DNA of 64,000 nucleotides, taken from NCBI GenBank assembly GCA_949878745.1, contig CATLBH010000005.1, positions 21,765 to 85,764 on the forward strand. The letters run 5' to 3'. Position 1 is the first letter of the stretch; each line of letters starts with the position of its first letter. This document shows positions 25,031 through 54,084 of this stretch, piece by piece. The translations under genes and the position numbers were made by a program. Under the pieces are notes generated by a model. That model ran no database searches. It saw only the letters and a list, made by a program, of their open reading frames with translations, and was not told where the DNA came from. The DNA comes from an uncultured Ruminiclostridium sp. (lineage in GTDB: Bacteria > Bacillota > Clostridia > Oscillospirales > Ruminococcaceae).

Positions 25031-25079
25031 ATCATATTAAGCCCCGTTACATTCTTAAAATAAGTTCGGTAACTTTTCA

Positions 25080-25171
25080 TACCAATCCCTTATAAACTGA
25101 CGTCAAATCCATAGTTTAAAAAGGGATTGCACCCGAAACGCTAATCCCACGGTTTAAAAAAAGGATTAGTT
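25080..25171. mobile_element. 92 bp two-stem palindromic element (copy B) in fla/che operon
   Basis: TACCAATCCCTTATAAACT..AGTTTAAAAAGGGATT-GCACCCGAAACG-CTAATCCC..GGATTAGTT flanked by TCA (25077-25079) and TCA (25172-25174). Confidence 0.8.
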
Positions 25172-26299
25172 TCAATCCGCTTCCGGCAAGGCGGAGGGTA
25201 AAACCGTCTCCCCTTCGGCGGCGCCCGATATAAGCTCTTCCGCTTCCGCCGTCAGCTCGGGCTTGGCCTCCTTAACAGTCTTGGAGGCCTTTGCGTTTTT
25301 TGAAGTCCGAGCCGATTTTGGCTGAGGCTTCGGAGCGGGTTCGTCTTCTTCCCTGGGCGGTTCCTCTTCCTTATCCCTGAACTTTCCGCGCCCCAACTCG
25401 CCTATCATTTTAAGCTGAGTTGAAACACCCGCGTCGAATATTTCCGTTTCGTTTTCCAGCATCAGGGTACCGGATTCCGCGTCAACCACCTCAAATTCCA
25501 CATTGGCGGTGGGGGAGAAGCACTTTTCGTAAAGTCTGAAATCCGCTTCCATATCCTCGCTTAAATCGTGCTTTGAGAGGGTCACTTTTATGTTTTTGGT
25601 GTTTCTGAATTCCTTCGCGGCGGCGGATATCATTTTTTCCAGCGCTTTTTTATCCTTCTGACTGAACACCGTCATGGTTATTTTTTCCGCCACTTCCATG
25701 GCAAGGTCGAAAACGCTCCTGCGCTGTTCCGCCAGTATGTCCGCCTTTTCCTTTTCGACTTCGCCGCAAAAACGCTTAAGCTCCAAGAGACCGTCTTTGC
25801 ACTTTTTCAGTCCCTGAATATAGCCTTCCTCTTCGCCCTTCTTAAGACCCTCCATAAAGCCCTCGTCAAGGCCTCTTTTTCTTGCTTCATCATAGATTTG
25901 TTCCGACTTTTCGTCGATCTGGGTCAAAAGGCGTCTTCCCTTGTCCTTCGCTTCTTCTGTAATACGTTCCGCTTCTTCTTTTGCCTTCTCCAATTCGCTG
26001 TCGGCTCTTTTCCGCATTTCCACGGCGTATTCCTGACCTTCGCGGCGGTATTTTTCCCTAAGGTTTTCCAGTTCTTCAAAGTCTATTTTCGGGGGCTTCG
26101 GTTCTTTTTCTTCGCTTTCGGCGCCGTTCTCCCGAATTTCCTTTTCAGGCATGGATTCCTCCGAGGACTCGGTTTCTTTTTTTTCGCCGTCCGAAAGATC
26201 TTTTTCGTCCGTCTGATTTCCTATTCTGTTGTTTATTACGGCGTCGCCCTCTATTACTATGTTCTTAAAAGGATTACTGCCTTTGATAACTTCAAACAT
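25172..26299 (-). CDS. fliH: Flagellar assembly protein FliH
   Basis: Long charged coiled coil then GLLELKRFCGEVEKEKADILAEQRRSVFDLAMEVAEKI..; position between fliG and fliI. Confidence 0.88.
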   Translation of the reverse strand: MFEVIKGSNPFKNIVIEGDAVINNRIGNQTDEKDLSDGEKKETESSEESMPEKEIRENGAESEEKEPKPPKIDFEELENLREKYRREGQEYAVEMRKRADSELEKAKEEAERITEEAKDKGRRLLTQIDEKSEQIYDEARKRGLDEGFMEGLKKGEEEGYIQGLKKCKDGLLELKRFCGEVEKEKADILAEQRRSVFDLAMEVAEKITMTVFSQKDKKALEKMISAAAKEFRNTKNIKVTLSKHDLSEDMEADFRLYEKCFSPTANVEFEVVDAESGTLMLENETEIFDAGVSTQLKMIGELGRGKFRDKEEEPPREEDEPAPKPQPKSARTSKNAKASKTVKEAKPELTAEAEELISGAAEGETVLPSALPEAD

Positions 26300-36435: not shown

Positions 36436-36448
36436 AGTATGCAATTAA

Positions 36449-36540
36449 TACTAATCCCTTTTAAAACTGTTGGATTAGTGCTTTGGGTGTAGTCCCTTTT
36501 TAAACTGTGTGTATTTCGTCAGTTTAAAAAGGGACTGGGA
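36449..36540. mobile_element. 92 bp two-stem palindromic element (copy A)
   Basis: TACTAATCC..GGATTAGT-GCTTTGGGTGTA-GTCCCTTTTTAAACT..AGTTTAAAAAGGGACTGGGA; TSD TAA (36446-36448, 36541-36543). Confidence 0.8.
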
Positions 36541-36549
36541 TAAAATACG

Positions 36550-36595: not shown

Positions 36596-36625
36596 AATCT
36601 TTCACGGATAATTATAACTGCATTA

Positions 36626-36736
36626 TACTATTTTCAAATTAAAAAGATTACAAAACTTAGTGGATAATTTGAAAATAGTGCTTTGGGTGTAATTTCATCT
36701 TAAAAAGGTTAGAATCTTTTTAAGATGAAATTAGTA
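36626..36736. mobile_element. 111 bp two-stem palindromic element (copy C)
   Basis: TACTATTTTCAAATTA..TAATTTGAAAATAGT-GCTTTGGGTGTA-ATTTCATCTTAAAAAG..CTTTTTAAGATGAAATTAGTA; TSD TTA on both sides. Confidence 0.8.
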
Positions 36737-36779
36737 TTATATCAATCTCTTGTTAAAGCGTGGGATTGACATAATCCAT

Positions 36780-46097: not shown

Positions 46098-46766
46098 AAT
46101 CAACGCAGTGCTGTACGTTGTTGACAGCGGCTGCAAATGGAGACAATTGCCACATGATTTTCCACCGTATACAACGGTATCGAATTTTTACTATAAGGCA
46201 GTTCGTGAGGGTTTATGGGAGAAAATATTGAAAGTAACGGTCATCAAAACTCGGACAGAAGCAGGAAAATCATCTGAGCCGAGTTATGCTCTGATTGATT
46301 CACAAAGTGTAAAACCCGTATATTCTTCAGATAAACGGGGTTATGACGGGGAAAAAACAAAAGGACGAAAACGACATATAGTAACCGATATCATGGGAAA
46401 TTTGCTTGCCGTTCACGTTCACGCTGCAAATATACATGACACAAAAGGCGGGGTGTATACTTTTGAAAAAGCGCTAAATCATTATCCAAGTATAGAAGCC
46501 GGCTGTGCCGATGAGGGTTACAGAGGAACGTTCAAAAATACATTCGAAATATTCCATAACATTAGAATTGATATTTCAAAACAGATAAAGCCTGTTTTTG
46601 AGGTTATGCTCAAACGTTGGCGAGTGGAGAGAACCTTTTCATGGCTTGGTCATTCGAGACGTCTTTCTAAAGATTATGAAATCCAGACCGTTTATGCTGA
46701 ATCCATGATTATCATTTCCCATTTCCATACTTTACTTAAACGATTTTAGTCTATTGGTACAGGTTC
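46097..46766 (+). pseudogene. IS5-family transposase, 5' truncated, fused to the IS3 remnant
   Basis: LINAVLYVVDSGCKWRQLPHDFPPYTTVSNFYYKAVREG..DSQSVKPVYSSDKRGYDGEKTKGRKRHIVTD..; lacks the N-terminal DLTDAQWELIKEYFP segment; right end ..GGTACAGGTTC|TAA. Confidence 0.85.
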
Positions 46767-48702: not shown

Positions 48703-49505
48703 GTACTTGTCCAAATAGAAAAAATATGGTATAATAGAATAATGAGATACACAAGTGATTTAACGGACGCACAGTGGGAACTGATAAAAGAATATTTTCC
48801 GGCAGGAAACAAAAGCAAGTACGAGAAAAGAGAGATGGAGAATGCAGTATTATATCTCGTAAAAACAGGCTGCCAATGGAGAAATCTGCCGATAGATTTT
48901 CCAAAATGGAAAGCAGTTTCAATGTTCTTTTATCGTGCCAAAAAGAATGGGGCATGGGAAAAGGCACAACGTATGTTGGTGAAAAAAATCCGTACCCAAA
49001 AGGGAAAAAATGAAGAACCGACATACGCACTAATAGACTCACAATCCGTAAAAACAACCTCTGCAAATGATAATAGAGGTTATGACGGGGGAAAAAACAA
49101 AAGGACGAAAGCGACACATAGTTACTGATACTTGGGGAATCTTTTGTGTGTTCATGTGTATGCTGCAAATATTCATGATACAAAGGGCGGCGTGCTTACC
49201 TGTGAAAAGGCGCTTTATCGTTATCCGACAATTGTTGCGGGGTGCGCTGATCAAGGTTATCGCGGAACATTCAAAAATACTTTTGAGTTTTTTCATAATA
49301 TCAGAATTGATATATCTCCACGCATTAAAAATAATTTTGAGGTGCAGCCTATTCGTTGGATTGTCGAACGGACTTTTGGATGGATGACTTGGTCTCGCCG
49401 TCTTGCCAAAGACTATGAAATTAAATCCGTTTATGCTGAAACTATGTGCACTATTTCAAACCTTGATACGCTTTTGCGTAGATTTTAGTCTATGTGGAAA
49501 AGTTC
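48703..49505 (+). mobile_element. IS5-family (IS427/IS1031-like) insertion sequence, 803 bp, TSD TTA
   Basis: TIRs GTACTTGTCCAAATAGA / GAACTTTTCCACATAGA; flanked by TTA (48700-48702) and TTA (49506-49508); transposase MRYTSDLTDAQWELIKEYFPAGNK.. within. Confidence 0.85.
48742..49488 (+). CDS. IS5-family transposase in two overlapping frames (48742..49128 and 49132..49488)
   Basis: Frame changes at GACGGGGGAAAAAACAAAAGG (about 49084); the related copy at 46350 reads GACGGGGAAAAAACAAAAGG in one frame. Confidence 0.8.
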
Positions 49506-53645: not shown

Positions 53646-54084
53646 GTTTTTTCTCCTTTCTTACGTTTCCGTTTGCGTTTCCGCTTATCTCGCTATAGCT
53701 CTTGTCTATAAATTCAAAAACGGTGTCCGTATCTACCGTACCGTCCAGCAGAATTGTGAGCCGGTTGTTTTTGTTCATATGATATCCGTGAAAAAAGCCG
53801 TCGGAGCGCGTCATAAAGTCTACTAACAGCGGCTCGCACTTGACGTTGAGTATAAATACACCGTCATAGCTTTCAAGTCCCAACTTGCTTTTGGAAACCT
53901 TCATCACAACCGCGTACAATTTACCGTTTCTGTGTCTTATACTAATCTTTGGTCAGATTATAGACAAAAAATGTTGACCAAAGATTAGTATTAAAACTGC
54001 GCTTTCCGGAGAATTTTCCCACAGATATTCGGGAGCGGTGCCGAATTGGGTTTTTACGTAGTCGAAAACAAGGTCTTTAAACAT
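53638..54084 (-). pseudogene. MmcQ/YjbR family protein interrupted by a 51 bp palindromic element
   Basis: MFKDLVFDYVKTQFGTAPEYLWENSPESAVL | insertion with TGA | RHRNGKLYAVVMKVSKSKLGLESYDGVFILNVKCEPLLVDFMTRSDGFFHGYHMNKNNRLTILLDGTV. Confidence 0.88.
53940..53990. mobile_element. 51 bp single-stem palindromic element (copy D), TSD TTA
   Basis: TACTAATCTTTGGTCA-gattatagacaaaaaatgt-TGACCAAAGATTAGTA flanked by TTA (53937-53939) and TTA (53991-53993). Confidence 0.88.

Follow-up and report, generated by a model that had tools for sequence, protein, structure and literature searches.

A recently active, genus-restricted family of twin-hairpin miniature elements with TNA target duplications in an uncultured Ruminiclostridium

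A short palindromic sequence at positions 36446-36543 of the 64,000-nucleotide stretch of Ruminiclostridium sp. DNA analyzed here (hereafter the window) raises the question of whether it is a mobile element and, if so, of what kind it is and what moves it. A preliminary description had placed two independent hairpins at these positions, separated by a linker shared with copies at 25080 and 36626 and flanked by a TNA target duplication. Folding of this copy (copy A) as RNA and as DNA returned two separate hairpins in both cases (RNA -34.5 kcal/mol, z -5.7; DNA -21.2, z -7.6), a stability that 0 of 200 shuffled sequences matched, and the mobile unit proved to be 92 bp long with a duplicated TAA outside it (Table 1). 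The 5' half of copy A reads TAA, TACTAATCC, a 14-nt loop, GGATTAGT and the linker GCTTTGGGTGTA; the 3' half reads GTCCCTTTTTAAACTG...CAGTTTAAAAAGGGAC TGGGA and then TAA, so that GGGA follows the 17-bp arms. The shared linker held for only one of the two other copies: copy C, flanked by TTA on both sides, has different stems and a 12-nt linker identical to that of copy A, but the linker of copy B, which is flanked by TGA, has diverged to GTTTCGGGTGCA. A single-hairpin copy (copy D) had been overlooked, as had a 29-bp terminal signature that is taken up below. Copy D is 51 bp long and corresponds to stem 1 of a subfamily that we call F4, with a TATAGACAAA box. In total, the window holds three twin-hairpin copies and one single-hairpin copy, each with a 3-bp TNA duplication. 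The TGA at 25172-25174 beside copy B doubles as the stop codon of a minus-strand ORF (25172-26299), and the insertion preserves this stop because its target duplication coincides with it.

Table 1. Positions of the element copies and their parts in the window.
Feature	Position	Strand	Basis
Left TNA target duplication, copy A (TAA)	36446-36448	+	Sequence; duplication also shown genome-wide
Copy A, twin-hairpin element, 92 bp, subfamily F1	36449-36540	+	Sequence, folding, covariance model (G000:C5:58213-58304)
Hairpin 1, copy A; arms ACTAATCC / GGATTAGT, loop 14 nt	36450-36479	+	Sequence, folding
Conserved 12-nt linker, copy A; GCTTTGGGTGTA	36480-36491	+	Linker searches, alignments
Hairpin 2, copy A; perfect 17-bp arms 36491-36507 / 36520-36536	36491-36536	+	Inverted repeat, folding
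Right TNA target duplication, copy A (TAA)	36541-36543	+	Sequence
Copy C with duplications; TTA 36623-36625, element 36626-36736 (111 bp, F2), TTA 36737-36739	36623-36739	+	
Copy B with duplications; element 25080-25171 (92 bp, F1-like, diverged linker)	25077-25174	-	Covariance model (G000:C5:46844-46935)
Copy B duplications; TGA on element strand	25172-25174 and 25077-25079	-	
Single-hairpin copy D with duplications; TTA 53937-53939, hairpin 53940-53990, TTA 53991-53993	53937-53993	+	

Within the window, the linker alone was weakly significant (10 matches with up to two mismatches, 4.1 expected). Across the host genome, its core TAGTGCTTTGGGTGTA had 194 matches with up to three mismatches, compared with 18 in a reversed control. 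The preliminary description had advised building a covariance model and had taken absence of the architecture beyond the window as grounds for doubt. A model built from 16 copies placed at least 150 copies (151 among the matches listed) in the host genome, which spans 2.67 Mb, and further copies in relatives of the same genus. These elements are 92-125 bp long and have no coding capacity, and their density is approximately 73 copies per Mb in the host stretches read. In a first sample of 99 genomes, the element was present in eight, the host included, all of the same genus; it occurred in seven of 59 other genomes of this genus and was not found in the 167 other genera of the same order that were sampled. 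A screen of 394 genomes of the order, which used stricter filters and scored few candidates per genome, found it only in the host and one genome of the same genus. In one relative (G016), the listed matches include 29 copies that score identically under the model, which argues for recent activity. Matching database records were metagenome-assembled genomes (MAGs), labeled mostly Oscillospiraceae or Clostridia. Two of the records carrying the element (L168 and L184; JAMPHV010000075.1 and JAMPHV010000051.1) are titled 'Bacteroides sp.', a title that looks wrong. Plasmids, phages and viral contigs gave zero element matches; one viral contig had a single match to the terminal signature, apparently inside a coding sequence, which we took as chance.

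The target duplications provide the clearest evidence of mobility. Among 162 clean copies from the host and its relatives, the left and right TNA were identical in 147, compared with 80 expected if the two ends were independent (p ~2e-29); the matching pairs were TAA (100), TTA (34), TGA (11) and TCA (2). One copy is nested within an F4 copy, for which the empty site, preserved in many intact siblings, reads ATGATTAA^AGATTAC and the filled site reads ATGATTAA, element, TAAAGATTAC. Empty sites with a single TNA were also recovered for copies in L206 and L207. The empty sites, nested insertions included, confirm that insertion is precise. When read in the orientation of the element, TAA duplications outnumber TTA duplications 95 to 32 (p 2e-8), and in the flanking target G is enriched at position -3 (48%) and T depleted at -5. 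The TAA-over-TTA asymmetry does not follow from a simple model with symmetric ends. Another dispersed host repeat, AAGTCCCACTGCTGCTATTTAAGAGTAAAAAAACAAGC and its variants, hosts insertions of the element (for example in L100, L102, L106, L226 and L234).

To place copies relative to genes, we used simple ORF-based gene calls over 1.24 Mb of host DNA, which positioned 91 copies, six of them at edges. All but one of the 85 remaining copies were intergenic, the exception lying within a called ORF. Fifty of the 84 intergenic copies fell between tandem genes (28 in the same direction as the genes and 22 opposite), 27 between convergent genes and seven between divergent genes. This context fits a mobile element that avoids promoters better than it fits a gene-linked regulator. 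We assign the elements to the miniature inverted-repeat transposable elements (MITEs) on account of their size, the inverted repeats at their termini, the 3-bp duplications, the large number of copies and their position between genes, in agreement with the view of copy A as a miniature element.

Approximately a dozen subfamilies could be distinguished, which keep the termini (TACTAWT...) and the linker while most stem pairs have changed in matched fashion. Both sides had changed in 22 of 31 pairs of the subfamily alignment, with 97.8% of cells paired, a value reached by none of 500 shuffles, and the signal was halved when partners were slid by one column; a second set that included subfamilies of relatives gave matched changes in 22 of 28 pairs and again 97.8% paired, where both counts come from MAFFT alignments that were not structure-fitted and the structure was written from the same sequences. 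The linker between the inner arms is approximately 10-14 nt across subfamilies, and every expanding subfamily retains near-perfect stems. The 35 young F4 copies presented a different picture: their 21 changed pairs comprised 13 broken pairs, seven G-T pairs, one other standard pair and no double change. Since stem changes in these young copies were few and uncompensated, pairing is kept among the subfamilies that spread and not visibly in copies that have landed. Duplications also flank single hairpins 50-55 bp in length, of which approximately 15, nearly all F4 stem 1, occur in the host DNA read and others in relatives. The host single hairpins may have arisen by deletion between 10-bp direct repeats located at the feet of the two stems, or they may be independent mobile units.

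The ends of the element consist of TACTAWT, 12 variable bases and, in many subfamilies, TRTAGACRAA. This 29-bp signature (TACTAWT-N12-TRTAGACRAA) had no matches in reversed controls, was present in nine of 71 genomes of the genus, and had 45 exact matches in one genome of another genus of the same family; a third genus gave a lone match, which may be fortuitous. The signature also bounds MITEs of 99-286 bp, without the linker and with matching TNA, in both the host genus and the sister genus. The sister-genus genome (G379, 99% complete) carries several such families (L289, L296, L302, L308 and L356-L365). The preliminary description had argued for a distinct class, and this wording was too strong because the terminal signature is shared: twin hairpins represent one of several architectures within a broader MITE superfamily. 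It had also recognized no named family, and our searches concur. Rfam returned only a tRNA above the gathering score in the window, and the literature searched, including by sequence text, contained no named family matching the element. On the basis of these Rfam and literature searches, the element is a new twin-hairpin family within a TNA-duplicating MITE superfamily. It is a real, recently active family restricted to its genus; it belongs to a known kind of element and is unusual in its architecture.

We consider it very probable that these 92-125-bp elements are non-autonomous DNA transposons moved in trans by a DDE transposase that would recognize the terminal signature, and mobilization in trans by such an enzyme is the most likely mechanism. 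A DDE-type transposase encoded elsewhere would bind the signature at both ends and move the element in trans. Insertion itself is precise, at TNA and with a 3-bp duplication. Each terminal repeat pairs with its own inner arm, giving two hairpins with the linker between the inner arms. The hairpins may be required when a source copy is mobilized, whether as single-stranded or cruciform DNA or in end protection, because all expanding subfamilies have them intact, whereas they degrade in copies that have landed. The twin architecture itself may stem from the fusion of two neighboring single-hairpin MITEs, whose degenerated inner ends would leave the linker. The enzyme is perhaps of the IS5/PIF-Harbinger kind, since those transposases make 3-bp TWA or TNA duplications.

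A search for the partner, in which TNA-matched ends 450-4500 bp apart were sought in host stretches and in relatives (some of them incomplete MAGs), yielded candidates that proved to be either two ordinary MITE copies or ends flanking ordinary genes. An autonomous element with these ends was not found in the 1.41 Mb of host DNA covered, which is roughly half of the genome and includes approximately 43 kb of N, nor in the sampled stretches of relatives; 19 host contigs shorter than 3 kb (L366-L384) read wholly as N, and a multi-copy insertion sequence might lie there. Multi-copy ORFs in the DNA read gave zero candidate partners. Genes matching PF01609, PF13359, PF13586 or PF01797 lacked these ends wherever their ends could be read, and in element-bearing genomes matches to PF01609, PF13586 and PF13359 were few, with ends that, for the ones inspected, differ from TACTAWT. 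The window itself has two IS5-like transposase matches at 46282-46680 and 49027-49416 (PF01609, with PF13586 nearby); the second of these is interrupted by an internal stop. An IS1182-like gene in L109 was rejected as a partner on the strength of its flanks, which show no TACTAWT ends. A Mutator/IS256-like gene in L113 was likewise rejected; next to it is another kind of repeat end, GGGCGTATCTGAAAA, which is found adjacent to element copies. This repeat end, next to TTA, was seen in L001, L075, L113, L159 and L219; in L001 and L113 it directly abuts element copies at their right end, and in L113 the Mutator-type transposase gene is downstream.

Other readings of these data were weighed against movement by a DDE transposase. 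The hairpins near both ends, the asymmetric target preference (TAA:TTA 95:32, G at -3 in 48%) and the single Y1 gene of the host would suit an IS200/IS605-type, PATE-like or REP/RAYT-type element, that is, single-stranded DNA moved by a hairpin-reading Y1 HUH transposase with TAA as a fixed cleavage site. However, TNA is variable at its middle base, and each variant is reproduced faithfully on the other side (TTA/TTA 34, TGA/TGA 11, TCA/TCA 2), which a fixed cleavage site cannot yield. Y1 genes were not detected in the element-rich incomplete MAGs G001, G016 and G055, whereas many element-less genomes have them, and neither GTAG nor CGTC is conserved as a tag in the linker; this reading is very unlikely. 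More improbable still is a host function as a structured RNA or as a transcription terminator, with spread through duplication, despite the very stable folds, the strong paired changes and the 27 of 84 copies that lie between convergent genes. The convergent enrichment is modest, avoidance of divergent regions fits purifying selection, and the copies occur in both orientations to genes (28:22). Moreover, the 3-bp duplications and empty sites, the patchy distribution within one genus, the uncompensated changes in young copies and the lack of an Rfam match all speak against such a function.

The remaining alternatives accept the MITE and concern its stems. Template-switch correction of imperfect palindromes is known in other systems, and correction between arms at replication would turn over both arms jointly and leave the linker unchanged, matching the stem changes with no selection on the hairpin. 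It is possible, if rather doubtful, that this is the whole explanation: young F4 copies hold broken pairs that have not been corrected (13 of 21 changed pairs, 0 compensated), so arm correction cannot be fast, and stems are near-perfect in all expanding subfamilies. Templated correction could nevertheless explain part of the matched stem changes. It seems unlikely, though we raise it as a conjecture, that the conserved requirement is hairpin structure rather than stem sequence, with the end hairpins and linker forming the substrate of an undescribed transposase at oriented TNA targets and a 51-55-bp single hairpin as the smallest mobile unit.

The element accounts for a visible share of its host's intergenic DNA. 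It may also break MAG assemblies, as suggested by contigs of a relative that end in identical copies. Its subfamilies amount to a natural experiment in which most stem positions have turned over in sequence and pairing, termini and linker have been retained; a transposase requirement for substrate structure therefore becomes testable. The signature common to several MITE architectures in two genera offers a handle for locating the missing transposase.

Among known systems, the IS1031 group of the IS5 family makes TNA duplications. Duplications of PIF/Harbinger (PHIS) elements are TWA, and those of NuwaII are TNA (PMC4482050). The element resembles the IS5 family and PIF/Harbinger in its 3-bp duplication, here TNA, but the IS5-like genes of the host bear other ends, such as AAGAACCTGTACC, and none with TACTAWT was found. 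REP dimers are not known to have target duplications, whereas the element truly duplicates its target and is not associated with Y1/RAYT genes. REP dimers of the GTAG and CGTC families are pairs of palindromes, some with conserved spacers, that carry GTAG/CGTC tags (PMC3733652); the element lacks such a tag, and the feet of its stems are TAGTG (stem 1) and TGTAAT (stem 2). It also differs from IS200/IS605-derived PATEs, which are expected to lack target duplication, in duplicating a variable middle base.

Like Correia/NEMIS, RUP, bcr1, Nezha and other bacterial MITEs, the element is a non-coding sequence of approximately 100 bp with terminal inverted repeats, a short duplication and many intergenic copies. 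Bacterial MITEs are described in general as forming one stem loop through pairing of the 5' and 3' ends (PMC2229807); in the present element, each end pairs instead with the inner arm on its own side. The CIR repeats known from Caulobacter and Brucella (Chen and Shapiro 2003, as described in PMC2229807) are small intergenic sequences with GANTC at an arm loop and a transcript model of two inverted-repeat arms and a linker. GANTC is absent from 138 of 140 element copies and the host phylum differs; the element likewise has two arms and a linker, and CIR is its nearest published counterpart in architecture.
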